From positions 1 to 33,457 of the IMG/VR virus record IMGVR_UViG_3300045733_000458: 33,457 nucleotides of DNA. One strand, written 5' to 3'. Position 1 is the stretch's first letter. Each line of letters starts with the position of its first letter. Below are positions 51 to 33,211 of this stretch, in pieces. Origin of the DNA: a virus. Both the position numbers and the translations under genes were made by a program. The notes below the pieces were generated by a model. The model did no database searches, was not told where the DNA came from, and worked only from the letters and a program-made list of their open reading frames with translations.

Positions 51-170
51 ATTCCGGCATGGCTCATGCATGGATTTAAGTTGGTCGGAAATCCCGAATA
101 ACTGAAAAACATTCCGCTGCGGATATAAAAAGTATAGTTTTCAAAGGATTTAAATCAAAGGCAACTTTTA

Positions 171-221
171 AAAGAAAAATATCTAAAACCTAAAATCTTT
201 TGACCTTAGATATTTTTCTTT
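171..221. terminator. Bidirectional terminator-like hairpin
   Basis: A perfect 16-bp inverted repeat (AAAGAAAAATATCTAA at 171-186, its complement at 206-221) encloses a 19-nt loop. The arms are A/T-rich, so each strand gives a U-rich 3' side. It lies downstream of the minus-strand helicase and of the possible plus-strand gene end at 50, which fits termination from both sides. The right arm runs directly into a copy of the dispersed CTTTAATAAGC repeat (218-228). The arms resemble those of the hairpin at 10627-10674. Confidence 0.6.
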
Positions 222-249
222 AATAAGCTTCTTTTGATTTAAAATTCAA

Positions 250-318
250 AAGGCACTACTTTGGAAAATCGTAATGCACCACTGTTTTTTTCTTTACAAT
301 TGTCCAATATAGTGCCTT
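250..318. repeat. Diverged member of the tandem hairpin family
   Basis: A 9-bp arm (AAGGCACTA, 250-258) pairs with 310-318. After a two-base mismatch, TTGG (261-264) pairs with CCAA (304-307). The left arm continues into TTTGGAAAATCGTA, the same string as in the hairpin at 338-401, but the loop is longer (39 nt) and has lost the TATATATAATAGG core. I read it as a decayed or variant third copy of the element. It also holds a direct repeat of ACAATTG (296-302 and 324-330). Confidence 0.5.
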
Positions 319-337
319 ATATTACAATTGGAAAAAT

Positions 338-401
338 TTACAAGGTCGCACTTTGGAAAATCGTATATATAATAGGGATTTTCCAAAGTGCGACCTTGTA
401 A
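338..401. repeat. Long perfect hairpin A, 25-bp stem, conserved loop
   Basis: Bases 338-362 and 377-401 are a perfect 25-bp inverted repeat around the 14-nt loop GTATATATAATAGG. The stem reads TTACAAGGTCGCACTTTGG and then AAAATC next to the loop. The inner part of the stem and the whole loop are identical to hairpin B at 440-487, while the outer stem differs in sequence yet remains fully paired. The right arm is not followed by a T tract, so it is not a textbook terminator. The loop contains a TATAAT string but no well-placed -35. Confidence 0.85.
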
Positions 402-531
402 TAAATGGTAATAGATATTATAATATGTTTAACTTATATCACCATTTCGGAAAATCGTATATATAATAGGGATTTTCCGAAATGGTGCGTGGGACTAAAT
501 GGTAATAGATATTATAGTATGTTTAACTTAT
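402..531. repeat. 36-bp direct repeats flanking hairpin B
   Basis: The 36-bp string beginning TAAATGGTAATAGATATTAT occurs at 402-437 and again at 496-531 with one difference. Together with the hairpins this gives a unit of hairpin plus flank, duplicated in tandem. The second copy overlaps the last codons of the minus-strand helicase, which ends KLNIL, so the first copy looks like a duplication of the 3' end of that gene together with its downstream hairpin. Confidence 0.8.
440..487. repeat. Long perfect hairpin B, 17-bp stem, same loop as A
   Basis: Bases 440-456 (CACCATTTCGGAAAATC) pair perfectly with 471-487 around the 14-nt loop GTATATATAATAGG, which is identical to that of hairpin A. The outer stem is unrelated to that of A, so both arms have changed together. 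It starts 25 bases beyond the helicase stop codon on the downstream side. The function is unknown. Confidence 0.85.
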
Positions 532-2668
532 CGTCAATCTTGTCCATATTTCTTTTTTTTAGCTGTCTAAAAGCTTTTTCAGATATGCCGAAATCAGCTT
601 TTAGCAACGGTTTTATATCTTTGTCAGTGGCAAATCTGAGCCGATACCTGCAATATGCATTCACTATCTCAGCTTCGTCGTACTTCTTTCTCCCATCTTC
701 TTTGTACAAATTATCATTGTCGTATGTGTATATGTCCGAAACCTCACCAAGATTGCAATTACTGTGCCTGTCTTCAACGTGTTTTAGTATGCTGCCTGTT
801 ATAATTTCCCTGTCATTTTTATTTTTGACTTCTTTGACATGAATCATTTTTGTATCTACTCCGTACTTTTTGAGATACTCAGACAAATATTCAGCCATGT
901 CTTCTTCCTCTTCGGAATCCAAAAATAAAACGATAGCCTTGTATTTATAATCGCCCCTGAGTATTCTAAGAGCCGACTGAGTTATACTTTTTTTCATAGC
1001 ATCTAGATAATCGATTATCTCAATACTCTCGTCTACGGTCGGCACGATGCGTTCTACGATATCAATTTTAATATGGCAGTCCTGCAATGCCATGACATGA
1101 CCTGAAAAGTTAGTTCCTTGCGTTTGATTGCCTTTTTGGTACACATAAGTTACGTTCTTGTCGTCCCTGCTTACCTCGCTTGCTTCTCTTCCGGTATCAA
1201 TTATTACGTCTGCCAGAACCGGATTGACGTTGCTGAACGAATTATTCTCTTTATTGTCTGTCGTAAAGTCTTCGACAACGTCTTTTTTATTTGCGATTGC
1301 AAGCATCTGCATGTCCTGCTTTTCTTTTAATTGTCTGAAAAACAATTCCATATCAGAGGAGCAATTTGCTTTGTTTGGGAAAATAAATATATCCATTTCC
1401 TTGATTTTGCATGGAGTACTGAATTGCCTATCTGTTTTCAGCTTATACCCAAGTTTTTCAAGGACTCCAGGAGTGGCTGTAACATAATGATTCTTAGAAC
1501 CCATGAATTCAAATTGTTTTTTTCTTAATATCATTCTGGTGATGTATAGCTTCTTGCCCTCGGTCGAAAAAGTATTGTAGTAGTTTATCCAATCTTTCTT
1601 TAATAATTTATTTCTGGCGAACTCAATGACATCCTCACGTGTATCTAGAACTGCAAGGCTGCATCCGTCTTCGTCAAATACTTCTAATTTTTGAGTTATA
1701 AGAATTATTGAGTCATTTATTTTCAGAAACTTTGAAGTTATTCCCTCATCCTGAAAAACGTCTGTATTTATTTTGTATCTTACTATTTCGTCAAATCTCT
1801 TAATATAATAGTCTCCAACTTTTTTGCCGCGTCTATTGCAGTATTCAATTATGGATTCCGAAACTTCGATTAAATTATTAAGTATGAGTATTTTGAAATC
1901 ATACTTGCCGCCAATGCTATTACTAAAATATTTTATACCCTCCGAGTTGTTTTCCAGCTTTTTATTAAAACTTTCGTAAGGTAATTTGTAATAGTAGTCA
2001 GTATCAAAATCGTCAGCCGCACATTCTTTGCTACAAGATTCGACATACGACTTATGGCAATACCTGAACGCATGGTCGGCAATATACACTTGGTTTCGAT
2101 TTTGGTCGACAAGATTTTTGCCTATAAAAAAATTGACCGGAATAGTTTCGATCCCCATTTTGTGGAATTGGTCAAATTCGTCAAAGACGCAAACAAGGTT
2201 CTTGCCGCTTTCTTTTTGGAATTCTTGTATTTTATAGCAATTATTGTTATAATTAGAATCGTGACCATGAGGGAAAAAATAAGCGTGATTCGTAACAATC
2301 ACTTTTGCATCCTTGAGGTCGTCAATGCTTAAAGGGTTATGAGTGTTCAAGATTACGACTCCAAGTTTTTTTAATAACTTAGAGTTATTTTTTTCGAAAT
2401 TTAGTATATTTTCAATCAAGTCCAAATCTTCGAAGTCTGTATAAATCTTTAAGCATTTGCATATTTCTTTTATTATTCCGTTTATCAATGCATTAGACAT
2501 AGTAGACACTAGCAGAATATCACTAGTGTCTTGGTATATTCGTTCAACCGATATCCTGCCACAACTATGCGTTTTGCCCGTTCCTATTGCAATGATATTG
2601 ACTTCGTTTTCGACAAATATTTCTCTTAAACTCTCTGACATTTTAAACTGAGTTCTAGTTTTTGTCAT
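512..2668 (-). CDS. Phage SF2 (DinG/XPD-like) DNA helicase
   Basis: This 718-residue protein has the landmarks of a superfamily 2 helicase: Walker A AIGTGKTHS (residues 27-35, very near the N-terminus), a VTNHAYF stretch (about 125-131) and Walker B FDEFDQ (162-167). TATPG follows (397-401), then a late QGTNFSG motif. An NH motif shortly before the DExD box is typical of DinG/XPD-type helicases. A Cys-rich patch (about 204-216) follows, but a full iron-sulfur set is not clear. The ATG at 2668 is preferred over a GTG at 2677 because an AAGGAG site overlapping the stop of the small AbrB-like gene lies eight bases ahead of it. The two genes form one transcript from the divergent promoter. It likely unwinds DNA in phage replication or recombination. 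The exact family is uncertain. Confidence 0.75.
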   Translation of the reverse strand: MTKTRTQFKMSESLREIFVENEVNIIAIGTGKTHSCGRISVERIYQDTSDILLVSTMSNALINGIIKEICKCLKIYTDFEDLDLIENILNFEKNNSKLLKKLGVVILNTHNPLSIDDLKDAKVIVTNHAYFFPHGHDSNYNNNCYKIQEFQKESGKNLVCVFDEFDQFHKMGIETIPVNFFIGKNLVDQNRNQVYIADHAFRYCHKSYVESCSKECAADDFDTDYYYKLPYESFNKKLENNSEGIKYFSNSIGGKYDFKILILNNLIEVSESIIEYCNRRGKKVGDYYIKRFDEIVRYKINTDVFQDEGITSKFLKINDSIILITQKLEVFDEDGCSLAVLDTREDVIEFARNKLLKKDWINYYNTFSTEGKKLYITRMILRKKQFEFMGSKNHYVTATPGVLEKLGYKLKTDRQFSTPCKIKEMDIFIFPNKANCSSDMELFFRQLKEKQDMQMLAIANKKDVVEDFTTDNKENNSFSNVNPVLADVIIDTGREASEVSRDDKNVTYVYQKGNQTQGTNFSGHVMALQDCHIKIDIVERIVPTVDESIEIIDYLDAMKKSITQSALRILRGDYKYKAIVLFLDSEEEEDMAEYLSEYLKKYGVDTKMIHVKEVKNKNDREIITGSILKHVEDRHSNCNLGEVSDIYTYDNDNLYKEDGRKKYDEAEIVNAYCRYRLRFATDKDIKPLLKADFGISEKAFRQLKKRNMDKIDDKLNIL

Positions 2669-2680
2669 GGCTTTCACTCC

Positions 2681-2939: not shown

Positions 2940-5165
2940 ATGGCTAATGCAACAAATCAAACCAAAATAGTAGTAGATATAAAGAAAGAAATTTGGGCAA
3001 AAGATGATTACATAGTATATATCGGAGAAATCGAAAGTAAGCACTTTGGAGTCGATGAAATAGCGGTCAATACAAGTGGATTTGAATTGAGACCTGGAAA
3101 AACAACTTTGGTCGGTACAATGAGAACTTATAAAGGAAAACCATCTTTCAAATGCGACTATGAGGAATTTGACAGCACTTCATACGATAGCAAATACAAC
3201 CTTCTATGCTCAATCAAAGGAATCAAAGACGTGACTGCAAAGAAAATACTTGATAATATTCCGGATGCCGATATTGAGATATTCTACGGCAAAGACATTC
3301 CTAAAATTAAAGGAGTCGGAGAAAAGACAATTTCGTTAATTCATGAAGGATTAACCTTTTTGAGAAGCAACCAGACATTGCAATCGCTTATTGCTTTAAT
3401 AGGAAATAGCATTTCAAATAAAAGAATTCATAAGTTAAACACTGTGCTTATGGATGAAAATATTTCCGTGGACGAATTCAAGGCAGACCCGTATTCACTT
3501 TTAATCGACCATCTTGAAATTGCATTTAAAAAAGCCGACTTTATAGCACAAGAAAAATTAAAATGTTCCAAGAATTTAAAATCGAGACTTATATTTTTGT
3601 ATGAACAGGTAGTAAAAATGATAACTGGATTTGGAGATACTTATGCAGATATTTCAGACTTCAAGCAGAAATTAGATAAATACAATTTGCAGTATGACGA
3701 TTTGAACGACTTGATAAACGATGAACATTCTAAGATTGTTAATGATAATGGACGAGTGCAAACTAAATTGATGGCTATGTCTGAAAGTGAAATCCCAGCA
3801 TATCTCAGCGAAATTGCTGAATCGAATAAAGTTTCAGATTGGGAATTGTCAAATTTAGGTATACTCATAAACGAATACGAAGCTAAGAACAAAATATCAT
3901 TGCATGAAGTGCAGAAACAGGCTGTCAAGTCTGCTATCGAAAACAACGTCAATATGATTTGTGGAGGTGCTGGAACAGGCAAGACTACAATAATAAAATG
4001 CATAATTTATGTGCTCAAAAAACTTAATTATCAAACTCTATGCACTGCCCCAACTGGCAAAGCAAGCCGCCGCATGAGCGAAGCAACTGAGAACGATGCA
4101 TTTACTTGTCATAGATTTTATTTTGCAGAGGAGTCGGGTTCTCAGGCTTGCGATGCATGGGGTGGTAATAACACTGTAATGATTATAGACGAGTTTTCGA
4201 TGGTTGATTCGATTTTATTTTACAAAGTATTGCAATCAATGAAAATGTCAGGCACAAAGTTTACTAAAATATTAATGGTCGGCGACCCTGGTCAACTTGC
4301 GAGCGTTGGTGCTGGGAATGTCATGGCTGACTTAATTGCATCCGGTAAGATAAGTGTAATAGAGCTTACAAATACATTTAGACAATCGGAAGGAAGTAAG
4401 ATAATTGAAATTTCAAAGCTTGTTAGAAAAAATGAAACATTTGACCTAATAAAAGCAAAAGATTTTTTCGCAACTATCCAAACAAATCCGGATGATTATA
4501 TTTTGAGATGCTGGATTGCAAAACAAAACAAGTCAAACTATATTGACGGCTTATATAATGATTTCCAAATTTGCACGTCAAGTCGGAAAAGATGTAACGA
4601 AATAAATACAGTTATAAGGGCAGAAATGGGAAATCAACCAATAATGTTATTCGACAGAGACGTTGGTTTTTCGCTTGGCGACAAGGTAATGAATACCAAA
4701 AATGACTACGACAATGATATATACAATGGGGAATTTGGAAGAATACATTGCTTGAGATACGAAATTAACGGTTGTCAGTACTGTATCAAGACGAATGATG
4801 AACTTAAAAAATATTATGACAACAAAATTATTGGTAAAAATGTTGTATTTTCAGTTTTTTATTCAGGAATAAATAAGTATGTATTTTATGATTTATCATC
4901 ATTTGACGAACTTGAAAATTTTCAATTATCATACTGCTGCACTATCCATAAATTGCAGGGCAGTGAATTTGAAACAGTAATATGCGATGTAAGCGAATTC
5001 AATATGATAACCGATTCAAGATTGCTATACACCGCAATAACTAGAGCTAAAAAGCAATTTATATTAATATCTAATGAAAAAAGCACGATTGACAAGATAG
5101 TCAAAAACAAGATGTCTTCTAAAAGAAAAACGATATTGGTCGAAAAGATGCTAAAAAGGAGGTAA
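2940..5165 (+). CDS. RecD2-like ATP-dependent DNA helicase
   Basis: The 741-residue protein has the RecD2 architecture. An N-terminal OB-like part is followed by helix-hairpin-helix repeats (around residues 95-140, with IKGIKDVTAKKIL and IKGVGEKT). The SF1 core has Walker A GAGTGKT (343-349), DEFSM (417-421), GDPGQL (448-453), a TFRQ motif, a UvrD-type CTIHKLQGSEF motif and YTAITRAK (697-704). RecD2 enzymes are 5'-3' helicases on single-stranded tails. GGGAGG lies ahead of the ATG, and a consensus promoter ends about 55 bases upstream. The gene is followed five bases later by an ERCC4-type nuclease, so the two probably act together on replication or recombination intermediates. Confidence 0.9.
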   Translation: MANATNQTKIVVDIKKEIWAKDDYIVYIGEIESKHFGVDEIAVNTSGFELRPGKTTLVGTMRTYKGKPSFKCDYEEFDSTSYDSKYNLLCSIKGIKDVTAKKILDNIPDADIEIFYGKDIPKIKGVGEKTISLIHEGLTFLRSNQTLQSLIALIGNSISNKRIHKLNTVLMDENISVDEFKADPYSLLIDHLEIAFKKADFIAQEKLKCSKNLKSRLIFLYEQVVKMITGFGDTYADISDFKQKLDKYNLQYDDLNDLINDEHSKIVNDNGRVQTKLMAMSESEIPAYLSEIAESNKVSDWELSNLGILINEYEAKNKISLHEVQKQAVKSAIENNVNMICGGAGTGKTTIIKCIIYVLKKLNYQTLCTAPTGKASRRMSEATENDAFTCHRFYFAEESGSQACDAWGGNNTVMIIDEFSMVDSILFYKVLQSMKMSGTKFTKILMVGDPGQLASVGAGNVMADLIASGKISVIELTNTFRQSEGSKIIEISKLVRKNETFDLIKAKDFFATIQTNPDDYILRCWIAKQNKSNYIDGLYNDFQICTSSRKRCNEINTVIRAEMGNQPIMLFDRDVGFSLGDKVMNTKNDYDNDIYNGEFGRIHCLRYEINGCQYCIKTNDELKKYYDNKIIGKNVVFSVFYSGINKYVFYDLSSFDELENFQLSYCCTIHKLQGSEFETVICDVSEFNMITDSRLLYTAITRAKKQFILISNEKSTIDKIVKNKMSSKRKTILVEKMLKRR

Positions 5166-6480: not shown

Positions 6481-6515
6481 TAGGAGTTAAATATTAATTA
6501 TAGGAGTTGATAAAA

Positions 6516-7034
6516 ATGTCAAATAATTTCAAACTGAAAATCGAAGCGGTAAAACAAAGTATCCAAATTGACACAATTCTTGAACAATTCGGATTCTCGA
6601 AAAACTTAGAAAACAAATACGTTTGTCCATTTCATAACGACAAACGAAATTCTTTCAGCGTTTCCAAGGATGGCGGTACATGCTACTGTCACTCCTGCAC
6701 TGCGACCGGTGACGTAATTAACGTTTATATGCAACTGTCAGGCAGTACGTTTGTCGAAGCAGTTAATAACCTTGGAGGCAGTCGCGAAATATCGTCTGGA
6801 CTCAGCGAAGAACTGAGGGAAAGAGAAAATCAAAAGAAGCTTATTAAAGAAAAATATCTAAACGAACGCTTATATTTTATTGCCATGCATGACTTGATAA
6901 AAATTTACAAGCGATTAATTGCAAGCTCAAAACTATGGTCGGAGGTCAAATATTATTCCGACAAATTGAACGAAATCGAGTGCGAATTGTACAGACTTGA
7001 CGAAATTCAAGCCAGAGAGGAGGCGGCGAAATGA
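6516..7034 (+). CDS. CHC2 zinc-finger, DNA primase-like protein
   Basis: The 172-residue protein carries a CHC2 zinc finger. Cys37-Pro-Phe-His40 is followed after 17 residues by Cys58-His-Ser-Cys61, then TGDVINVY, as in the N-terminus of DnaG primases. No TOPRIM domain is present, and the C-terminal half is a charged, probably coiled-coil helix. It therefore cannot be a complete primase; it may bind template and recruit another primase or helicase. The ATG at 6516 has TAGGAG at nine bases. Its TGA overlaps the ATG of the next gene, and it contains a copy of the dispersed CTTATTAAAG repeat in frame (LIKEK). Confidence 0.8.
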   Translation: MSNNFKLKIEAVKQSIQIDTILEQFGFSKNLENKYVCPFHNDKRNSFSVSKDGGTCYCHSCTATGDVINVYMQLSGSTFVEAVNNLGGSREISSGLSEELRERENQKKLIKEKYLNERLYFIAMHDLIKIYKRLIASSKLWSEVKYYSDKLNEIECELYRLDEIQAREEAAK

Positions 7035-10241: not shown

Positions 10242-10610
10242 ATGGAAAAGTATTTTACCGTCGCATGTTTTATTGCAATCTCAATTATTTTGCTATCCAT
10301 CACGATTGGATATCTTTTCGCAGAGTCGAGGACTAGAGAAAATTATACTCAAATTCAGGCAGAAACGTTGAGTCGTGAATTCATTGACAGCCCAGTCGAG
10401 TCAATGAATATGATTGGAAAAAAGTTTGCCATCGAGGGCAAAGTAAAAGACGTGCTTTGCATCAAAGGGAAGTATACAACCTTGATAGACTGCGGAGAAT
10501 ACCCTCAAATTTACGTTGAAAATTGCGCCAAAAAGGAAGGAGATTGGTGCAAGATAAATATAAAAATAAAGGAATTTATTGGGTTTATCGTAGCAATTGA
10601 GATAATTTAG
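10242..10610 (+). CDS. Membrane-anchored OB-fold-like protein
   Basis: A 122-residue protein with one N-terminal membrane segment (about residues 5-27, rich in Ile/Leu). A short linker leads to a beta-rich domain (FAIEGKVKDVLCIKGKYTTLIDCGEYPQIYVEN and onward) that resembles the tRNA_anti-like OB fold of small Gram-positive and phage membrane proteins. The ATG at 10242 has AAGGGG eight bases ahead. It is the last gene of the early block and stops just before a bidirectional terminator. Confidence 0.6.
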   Translation: MEKYFTVACFIAISIILLSITIGYLFAESRTRENYTQIQAETLSREFIDSPVESMNMIGKKFAIEGKVKDVLCIKGKYTTLIDCGEYPQIYVENCAKKEGDWCKINIKIKEFIGFIVAIEII

Positions 10611-10619
10611 GTCAAAGAA

Positions 10620-10695
10620 GCTTATTAAAGAAAAACATCTATTTATTAAATAACTGTGCTAGATGTTTTTCTTTTTATATTTTTCTTTAATAAGC
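10620..10695. terminator. Bidirectional terminator built from two repeat copies
   Basis: A perfect 15-bp stem AAAGAAAAACATCTA (10627-10641) with 10660-10674 and an 18-nt loop lies between the convergent early and late genes. It is flanked by two inverted copies of the dispersed repeat (GCTTATTAAAG at 10620-10630, its complement at 10685-10695). These give alternative, larger pairings. The right arm is followed by T-rich sequence on the plus strand, and the arrangement is symmetrical for the minus strand. Confidence 0.75.
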
Positions 10696-10706
10696 AGATT
10701 TTGATT

Positions 10707-11981
10707 TTATAAGTAAGTCGAAGTAGATACTTGCAGTTCTATGATTGCCGCTCTTTGATTTGCATTAGTCGAACCGATGTAAACGTGCCCAGCCTCAGAC
10801 GTAAACCCAGTTGTTGCCGAAATATATAACGTGTCCGTTATGCCTGTCTCGGTCTCCATTTGAACCATGACTTTATCGTCAGCCTTGCTTAAATTGTAGT
10901 ATACATTTTTGCCAGCTGATAGAGTACTTCTCATCGCTTTTGTATAGGCAGTATTTGCACCCTCGAACATTACATTTACTGTAAACACATCGTTCTTGAT
11001 GCCGACCTCGATGTAATTTGCGGCATCAACGTACCAAGTCAGGCTCATTGAATATTTTGTCAATTTATTAACCTGATTCATGTAAATATAAAAATCCTGA
11101 TAAGCAATTGTTGACATTTTGAGGGCATTAACAATCATGTCCGAATTTCCAATTGTGCAAAGAGCAATATCGTTGACTTGTGCGTCCGTATCTTTGTGTA
11201 TCAAAAAATTCCATGCCGAATTTGGGAACCTTGAAATCCAAGTTGCCCCATTGTCATAACTTACTTGTTTGTCATCTGGGGCAGTCCCGGCGGCATTGGT
11301 GCGAACCAATCTTATTGAATGAAATTCAACTGTTTTATTTATTGAGTTTGCAAGTGTGTCCCAACCTAACTGAATCCACTGTATATTGTTCCAGTTCGGC
11401 GAACCGTTCACTGCAAAGTCTGACTTTTTAAGATAAATTCTGTTCCACCCAGCAACAAGTGCCGCGCCACTGCCTTGAGTATTAAAATATCTCCTGAACT
11501 GGTTGCTTGAATCCGCTCCAATCGAAATTAATATGCCATTGCCAGCCGTCACATTTAACTTCGTTACATCCTCAATCCATACCATTGCGTCGATGTAATC
11601 GTCCGTGCTTGATGCATCGCCATTAAGAAAGCTGTCTAAATATATCCTTGTACACGATTTATACCCATTTATTGTGTTTGCCGTATTGTCCGATTCCTTG
11701 AATGCTATTCCGCCGCCATGCACAAACCCGCCAGCCGCCAAGCATGTACACCCTGTCAGCGACCATCCAGTTTCGACCGATGTAGTCGGGATAGTTCCGT
11801 TATTTGTGATTTCCTTTTGATTTGTGCTGAGCATGTAAGGTCTATACAATGTCAATGAATCATAGACCTTACCCTTTTTGTCCAAATTATCAATCGCCGT
11901 TTCAAATGCATTTAAATTTGTTGCATTAAGAGCCAATCCACTCCCATTTGTCCAGACCCTTTTTGTATAATCTCTAGCCAA
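10707..11981 (-). CDS. Tail fibre / receptor-binding protein
   Basis: The 424-residue protein starts ARDYTKRVWTNGSGLALNATNLNAFETAIDNLD, the typical N-terminus of phage tail-end proteins that attach to the baseplate. A jelly-roll-like region (about residues 55-235) includes WNRIYLKKSDF, NGSPNWNNIQWIQLGW and VEFHSIRLV, as in carbohydrate-binding modules. A second beta-rich domain follows. The gene is last in the late operon, beyond the lysis genes, and ends at the bidirectional terminator. It starts with TTG (AGGTGA six bases ahead) inside the end of the amidase gene. It likely recognises a surface sugar of the host. Confidence 0.7.
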   Translation of the reverse strand: MARDYTKRVWTNGSGLALNATNLNAFETAIDNLDKKGKVYDSLTLYRPYMLSTNQKEITNNGTIPTTSVETGWSLTGCTCLAAGGFVHGGGIAFKESDNTANTINGYKSCTRIYLDSFLNGDASSTDDYIDAMVWIEDVTKLNVTAGNGILISIGADSSNQFRRYFNTQGSGAALVAGWNRIYLKKSDFAVNGSPNWNNIQWIQLGWDTLANSINKTVEFHSIRLVRTNAAGTAPDDKQVSYDNGATWISRFPNSAWNFLIHKDTDAQVNDIALCTIGNSDMIVNALKMSTIAYQDFYIYMNQVNKLTKYSMSLTWYVDAANYIEVGIKNDVFTVNVMFEGANTAYTKAMRSTLSAGKNVYYNLSKADDKVMVQMETETGITDTLYISATTGFTSEAGHVYIGSTNANQRAAIIELQVSTSTYL

Positions 11982-32028: not shown

Positions 32029-32844
32029 TCAATTAAATACAATATCTAACTTATTTGAATTTCTGAAATTATATTCTTCTAGTATTGCCCTTGCGACATT
32101 AGAAGGTATTCCTTTTCCGTAAACAGCTTGATTTTTTTTAGACATACTTATAATTTTTCCAGCTGGTATTTTTCTAAATTTTGCTATAAACTTTTTTTCA
32201 TTTATTTTTCCAAACGTTTTGTTCATAAATACATTCATGCCGTACAACATTGTATTCGACAAAGCATCTGGGTCGAAAGTGCCGTCGTCATATTTCCATG
32301 TTGATACCATGATGCCTAGCAATTTATCAAGTTTATCGTAGCCTTTTGAGTTATATATGCTATATAATGCACCTATTGCATTCGTATAGCCTCTTTTTTT
32401 CGTAGACGAATCCGAATGACCTCGGCTTGATTTAAGACCGTGCTTTTGCAACAAGAATTCAATACGCGTCGTTGTATGGTCTCCTGACACTAATAAAGCC
32501 TGGTATTTTTCAAATGCATGTATGGCATTTCTGTTTATTTGGCAATTGACAAACAATCCTGCTTCCTCAGACAACGCCAAACCACTGTATACCATACAAG
32601 GGACTTCTTTATAACTTTTTCTTGTTGCCGCTACGATACGGTGCTGACCATCGATTACATAATTTCCTGAATCCCTAATATTGACTATTATAAAGCCAAA
32701 TGCCTTCCAATCAAAACTCCTAATTATATTCTTAACTTTGGCGTAACTCGCTTTTCTCTGGTAATTCCCAATATCAAACTTCAGCTCTGATATTTTCATC
32801 ATCCTTATTTCATAATTTAATTCAGGTTCTTTGGTTTTTATCAC
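32029..32844 (-). CDS. DGQHR / ParB-like domain protein
   Basis: The 271-residue protein has MKISELKFDIGNYQRKASYA near the start, then FGFIIVNIRDSGNYVIDGQHRIVAATRKSY. The D-G-Q-H-R motif with preceding 'p-v-v-v' strand is the ParB/Srx nuclease-like fold, also seen in phage DGQHR proteins. A CTPase or nuclease role is known for some relatives; here only a nucleic-acid or nucleotide-binding role can be suggested. A GTG start at 32844 is preferred (AGGGAAGG upstream) and overlaps the zinc-finger gene. No ATG is near enough. Confidence 0.65.
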   Translation of the reverse strand: MIKTKEPELNYEIRMMKISELKFDIGNYQRKASYAKVKNIIRSFDWKAFGFIIVNIRDSGNYVIDGQHRIVAATRKSYKEVPCMVYSGLALSEEAGLFVNCQINRNAIHAFEKYQALLVSGDHTTTRIEFLLQKHGLKSSRGHSDSSTKKRGYTNAIGALYSIYNSKGYDKLDKLLGIMVSTWKYDDGTFDPDALSNTMLYGMNVFMNKTFGKINEKKFIAKFRKIPAGKIISMSKKNQAVYGKGIPSNVARAILEEYNFRNSNKLDIVFN

Positions 32845-33211
32845 AATACACACCTTCCCTTTCTAATAATTCATAGACTGAAAATCTATCTTTCTTTTTT
32901 AATTTCATTTTTGCATTGTAGCAGTTTTTACAAACACTTCGATAGTAATATTTTTTATCTCGTTTGTCATAGTTTTTTTGGAAATTATCCAATGTGTACT
33001 CAATTTTACAACTTTTACACATTTTAACTTCAAGTACTACGTGTTCTTTAATTTTTTTAAGTTTTTTATTTCTTTCTTTTTGTTTTTTACTGTTGCATTC
33101 TTTGCATTTGTTTAAGCGATATCTTGCCTCCCTGCCGCCACTTTTCACGATTCGAAATTCACTAATATCTTTTTCTTTTTTACAGGCTTTACATATTTTC
33201 ACCTCGTCCAT
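32822..33211 (-). CDS. Two-zinc-finger protein
   Basis: The 129-residue Lys-rich protein has two similar Cys4 units: CKACKKEKDISEF ... NKCKECN (about residues 7-41) and CKSCKIEYTLDNF ... SVCKNCYN (about 65-99). Such treble-clef-like fingers often precede HNH or endonuclease VII domains, but no nuclease motif follows here. AAGGGAG lies before the ATG, and a TATAAT lies upstream (complement of 33248-33253). It may bind DNA and work with the DGQHR protein that overlaps it. Confidence 0.7.
   Translation of the reverse strand: MDEVKICKACKKEKDISEFRIVKSGGREARYRLNKCKECNSKKQKERNKKLKKIKEHVVLEVKMCKSCKIEYTLDNFQKNYDKRDKKYYYRSVCKNCYNAKMKLKKKDRFSVYELLEREGVYCDKNQRT

Follow-up and report, generated by a model that had tools for sequence, protein, structure and literature searches.

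Tandem palindromes beside a DinG-like helicase gene as a candidate phage replication origin

In all six phage genomes of our sample, the gene for an SF2 helicase is directly followed at its 3' end by long palindromes with AT-rich centres (in G005 after one extra ORF). We propose that these palindromes act at the DNA level as a replication origin, or as a strand-initiation site within one, that is used by the adjoining helicase, and we put the probability of this reading, which is drawn from sequence comparison, at about 0.5.

Sample and features

The stretch of DNA analysed here (the window) is the whole IMG/VR record IMGVR_UViG_3300045733_000458, 33,457 bases, in which a protein scan of part of the ORFs found siphophage-like genes. 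With five further IMG/VR phages, G001 to G005 (loci L123, L124, L183, L184 and L186, in that order), it makes up a metagenome-derived sample of six genomes, whose proteins were scanned in part. The hairpins of the window, G001 and G002 form a near group, and those of G003, G004 and G005 a far group. The gene order of G001 suggests that ends 1 and 33457 of the window are adjacent on a circular map, with the contig break near the hairpins. The features of the window to which we refer are these:

149..243, strand not applicable: AT-rich inverted repeat, distal to the hairpins, probably a terminator
250..318, strand not applicable: hairpin C, an imperfect related copy, conserved in L123
338..401, strand not applicable: hairpin A, 25 perfect pairs, loop and inner 8 pairs identical to those of B
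402..437, strand not applicable: flank 3' of hairpin A, includes the TAAATGGTAAT box and is repeated after B
440..487, strand not applicable: hairpin B, 17 perfect pairs, AT-rich 14-nt loop
496..531, strand not applicable: flank 3' of hairpin B, reaches into the helicase gene at its 3' end
512..2677, minus strand: SF2 (DinG-like) helicase gene, 721 aa, possible C-terminal HTH, hairpin-linked in all six genomes
2940..5165, plus strand: RecD2-like helicase gene, divergent from the SF2 gene that it adjoins in each of the six genomes, and part of the same module

Results

Hairpins in the window

Hairpin A has its arms at 338-362 and 377-401 with a 14-nt loop between them, and hairpin B has arms at 440-456 and 471-487 around the same loop. 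A sequence-only reading of this DNA had described A and B as sharing their loop and six stem pairs, with perfectly paired outer stems and the same 36-bp flank after each; the loop identity and the perfect pairing stand, with 25 and 17 pairs in all, but the common inner stem comes to 8 pairs (GGAAAATC/GATTTTCC), and the flank copies at 402-437 and 496-531, though 36 nt long as described, differ by one mismatch. The longest perfect arm is 25, against a maximum of 13 in 30 Markov-1 simulated windows, and the DNA-fold z-scores are -13.6 for A, -6.7 for B and -3.9 for C. Hairpin C, which is matched by the near-group covariance model at E 0.0007, is an imperfect copy as had been noticed, but not a decayed one, its region being 88% identical in another phage where the neighbouring gene is 76% identical. 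We thus confirm that the hairpins exist, that chance falls far short of explaining them, and that they belong to a conserved cis-element. That the stems arose as assembly artefacts is unlikely because the same arrangement recurs in five other assemblies, of which four (G001, G003, G004 and G005) have 127-bp terminal overlaps, as in circular assemblies; in G003 the hairpin locus crosses the contig join.

Could the hairpins simply terminate transcription of the helicase operon? They lie after its stop codon, and T-rich stretches follow A on the minus strand (AAATTTTTCC) and hairpin 2 of L123, so that the earlier statement that T tracts are missing is true of B on both strands and of A on the plus strand, but not of A on the minus strand. 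Most copies, however, lack a coding-strand T tract (B, hairpin 1 of G002 and all three far-group hairpins), a terminator would not typically have loops of 14-16 nt or stems of 17-26 bp, and a consensus scan that allows loops of 3-8 only found no terminator here; the short G+C-rich stem, small loop and directly following T tract of an intrinsic terminator are not what these hairpins display. Terminator-like repeats, separate from the hairpins and downstream of them, are present in at least two genomes, the window and G002, the latter with a canonical terminator just past its hairpin cluster (L124 6582-6646). In the window, the AT-rich repeat at 149-243 shares sequence with another at 10607-10707, which sits between the convergent early and late operons; this resemblance makes 149-243 a plausible terminator, and the two are probably a matched terminator pair. 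Because separate terminator-like repeats lie further downstream, and because T tracts are mostly missing, we consider it very unlikely that the hairpins are terminators.

Linkage to the helicase gene

Relatives of the helicase were found in only five IMG/VR phages: a helicase query retrieved G001 and G002 (76% and 62% identical), and a RecD2 query retrieved G003, G004 and G005, in which the adjoining gene encodes another member of this helicase family, 23-25% identical. INPHARED searches gave no relative (the weak matches look like chance), nor did a PLSDB search, and GTDB pattern scans found none. Other RecD2-matching records in the phage collection carry no SF2 gene of this family, look like bacterial DNA and were rejected as relatives.

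In the window the hairpins adjoin the 3' end of gene 512-2677, between its stop codon and the inverted repeat at 149-243, and across the sample their distance from the last stop codon is 14-70 nt. The far group has kept this position while its palindrome sequence has been replaced. Between the window and G001 the hairpin DNA is 87-88% identical, compared with 76.4% for the adjacent helicase gene; the replication module is 76% identical in G001, and the window's terminase has no match there. A non-coding stretch downstream of the G001 hairpins carries about three tandem AGCAAGTTACC units (L123 6889-6923), which are iteron-like.

The motif is confined to this locus. Its exact core, TACGATTTTCC, is present in three copies per near-group genome, all at the hairpin locus, and a pattern search found it nowhere else. 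A looser form of the core matched 58 IMG/VR contigs, of which only the already known genomes combine long stems with an AT-rich loop, and in IMG/VR no genome other than G003 and G004 yielded the exact far-group stem. Searching with the bare loop pattern was uninformative, since the number of matching contigs was too large, and the flank box ATTACCAWTTA shows no genome-wide enrichment.

This confinement bears on a further explanation, that the palindromes are binding sites of some other DNA-binding protein, such as a regulator or a partition or packaging factor, and stand beside the helicase gene by chance. Inverted arms do resemble paired binding sites, and ParB-like genes are present: a DUF6551/ParB-like protein is encoded at 32029-32853, near the other end of the window contig, and relatives encode a DNA methyltransferase with a ParB-like start (L208 12192-13460), which in G001 lies downstream of the hairpins. 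Perfect pairing over 17-26 pairs, however, is seldom required of dimer sites, the motif is found in one place downstream of the gene rather than at promoters, and the palindromes diverge together with the helicase gene, all of which makes this explanation improbable.

Pairing kept through sequence change

Six near-group hairpins were aligned on the core and three far-group hairpins were counted separately. In the near group 93.2% of cells are paired, two-sided changes affect 13 of the 22 stem pairs, and the covariation score is 0.658 as against at most 0.161 with partners slid; in the far group pairing is 100%, with five two-sided changes, although these counts rest on six and three sequences and kinship inflates the comparison with shuffles. 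Hairpin B and its L123 counterpart, for example, differ in two stem pairs, each changed on both sides, with the neighbouring pairs identical. The far-group stem (GAGAGCAGTA...) is unrelated to GGAAAATC, and the near-group covariance model still finds the G004 hairpin at E ~1e-8, a rough value from which any strong hairpin would benefit. The earlier proposal that pairing rather than sequence has been kept thus extends across phages, and relatives that retain the loop while losing the pairing, which would have spoken against it, did not turn up.

At which level is the pairing kept? The main rival to a DNA site is that the 3' UTR of the helicase transcript contains a structured RNA, selected for its pairing as RNA and serving mRNA stability, RNase III processing or a regulatory or decoy role; it ranks first among the rivals because the position relative to the last stop codon is just as constant, at 14-70 nt even where an extra ORF intervenes (G005). 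The hairpins also lie upstream of a terminator-like repeat in the window and G002, and their folding is strong, as the z-scores attest. RNA helices, however, normally contain many G-U pairs, and in the near group only one cell is a wobble while 33 are two-sided, which suggests, without being decisive, that the palindrome is kept as DNA. The AT-rich loop is easily melted, and Rfam gave no match at or above the gathering score for the hairpins. On balance we regard an RNA element as unlikely. The pattern of changes suggests upkeep in the DNA itself, whether through selection for extrusion or through arm-to-arm correction.

Arm-to-arm correction has a known route, template switching, which turns imperfect inverted repeats into perfect ones (PMC3820800) and may be how the arms stay matched. 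Taken as the whole explanation, it would make the hairpins quasi-palindromes with no selected function, and two-sided changes lacking intermediates would follow from it. It does not account, however, for a position that is the same in six genomes, for the conservation of loop and core, or for conservation above that of coding DNA, and we judge it very improbable.

The helicase and its module

Inspection of the alignment by eye shows SF2-type motifs in the 721-aa protein (GTGKT, DEFD, TATP, QTQGTN and QSALRILRGD); Pfam, PHROGs and NCBIfam contain no significant match to the protein. Profile comparison of the six relatives with E. coli DinG plus YoaA gave 95% probability along some 146 columns of motor half 1, compared with under 4% for PriA and RecG, and a distant family member matched the PADLOC typeIV_DinG model at 3e-7. 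Motor half 2 gave no alignment to DinG plus YoaA. The profile match supports homology to DinG/XPD-type motor domains in motor half 1. The family is absent from the family databases searched, and the gene was previously unclassified.

The C-terminus possibly resembles a helix-turn-helix, on weak evidence, and this segment differs strongly between the window and L124 despite their common hairpin core motif. AlphaFold gave two models of low quality (mean pLDDT 37 and 40), which made the fold search meaningless. An AbrB/MazE-like ORF of 49 codons, read by eye, immediately precedes the helicase gene on its strand (2681-2830).

The rightward module encodes the RecD2-like helicase, an ERCC4 nuclease, a primase zinc ribbon and RecT. 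The zinc-ribbon protein (6507-7034, CHC2 type, 175 aa) lacks a recognised catalytic primase domain, and a relative encodes the same zinc-ribbon-only protein (L209 4308-4826). Among the genes scanned, which cover part of the ORFs, no phage-specific RNA polymerase, no HUH protein or nuclease, relaxase or rolling-circle Rep, and no other initiator or replicative helicase was recognised.

Discussion

Why would a phage keep long palindromes beside one particular helicase gene? The sequence-only reading, which had not drawn the link to the helicase, offered an origin, an HUH target, a structured RNA, or sites for a polymerase or regulator. Of these the best fit is an origin or initiation site, given that the hairpins are linked to the helicase gene and the replication module, their centres are AT-rich, they diverge together with the helicase, and no other initiator was recognised among the scanned genes; a structured RNA retains a place, and the polymerase and HUH options find no partner among those genes. 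Constant position, kept pairing, confinement to the locus, co-divergence with the helicase and conservation above neighbouring coding DNA are the observations behind this reading. Three points stand against it: the place after the operon's last stop codon suits an RNA element equally well, the window and L124 have strongly different C-terminal segments in their helicases but one and the same core motif, and the perfection of the palindromes could come in part from template-switch repair. GC skew tracks gene direction and therefore cannot place an origin.

From these observations we infer that the helicase would bind and melt the palindromes, which would function as an origin, and we envisage the following course. 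Two inverted recognition arms, with core GGAAAATC in the near group and GAGAGCAGTA in the far group, would flank the AT-rich centre; supercoiling, protein binding or both would melt this centre, allowing hairpins to extrude; the helicase, possibly through its C-terminal HTH, would bind the arms or the hairpin; and it would then widen the opening, upon which the host replisome could load. If true, this would be phage initiation by an SF2 helicase and DNA hairpins rather than by the usual replisome organiser and DnaB loader. Even if the origin reading is false, a helicase family and a linked cis-element have been defined that current annotation misses.

Known systems resemble this arrangement in part. 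The helicase is like DinG and YoaA (XPD group) in the profile match of motor half 1, which takes in the NH motif ahead of the DE box, and unlike DinG in that the six-sequence phage alignment has no counterpart of the Fe-S cysteine region between motifs I and II and in its possible C-terminal HTH. Plasmids, conjugative elements and phages have single-strand origins and other hairpin sites of initiation that, like the palindromes described here, are long hairpins in the non-coding DNA of a replicon, but no relaxase or rolling-circle Rep accompanies these palindromes among the scanned phage genes. The replisome-organiser origins of lactococcal TP901-1 and Tuc2009 are rich in direct repeats and lie inside the initiator gene (discussed in PMC8965321); both they and the present system would pair a phage-encoded initiator (here predicted) with a cognate origin in or near its gene, whereas here the repeats are palindromes downstream of an SF2 helicase gene.

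The most suggestive parallel is herpes simplex OriS, in which inverted boxes surround an AT-rich spacer, hairpins form, and the virus encodes the SF2 helicase UL9/OBP (PMC12543377). The phage site likewise has inverted arms flanking an AT-rich spacer, together with a virus-encoded SF2 helicase. Unlike UL9, the phage helicase is DinG-like, is encoded beside the site and is not matched by Herpes_ori_bp (UL9 family) in a Pfam search reporting hits to E 10; unlike OriS, the phage stems are longer, vary freely and stand in tandem. We treat the likeness as a functional analogy only, and not as evidence of homology. That phages initiate replication by a dedicated DinG-like SF2 helicase opening tandem extruding palindromes, as an independent bacterial counterpart of UL9/OriS, is a tentative and somewhat doubtful idea; if true, it would offer a simple bacterial model for the herpesvirus strategy.
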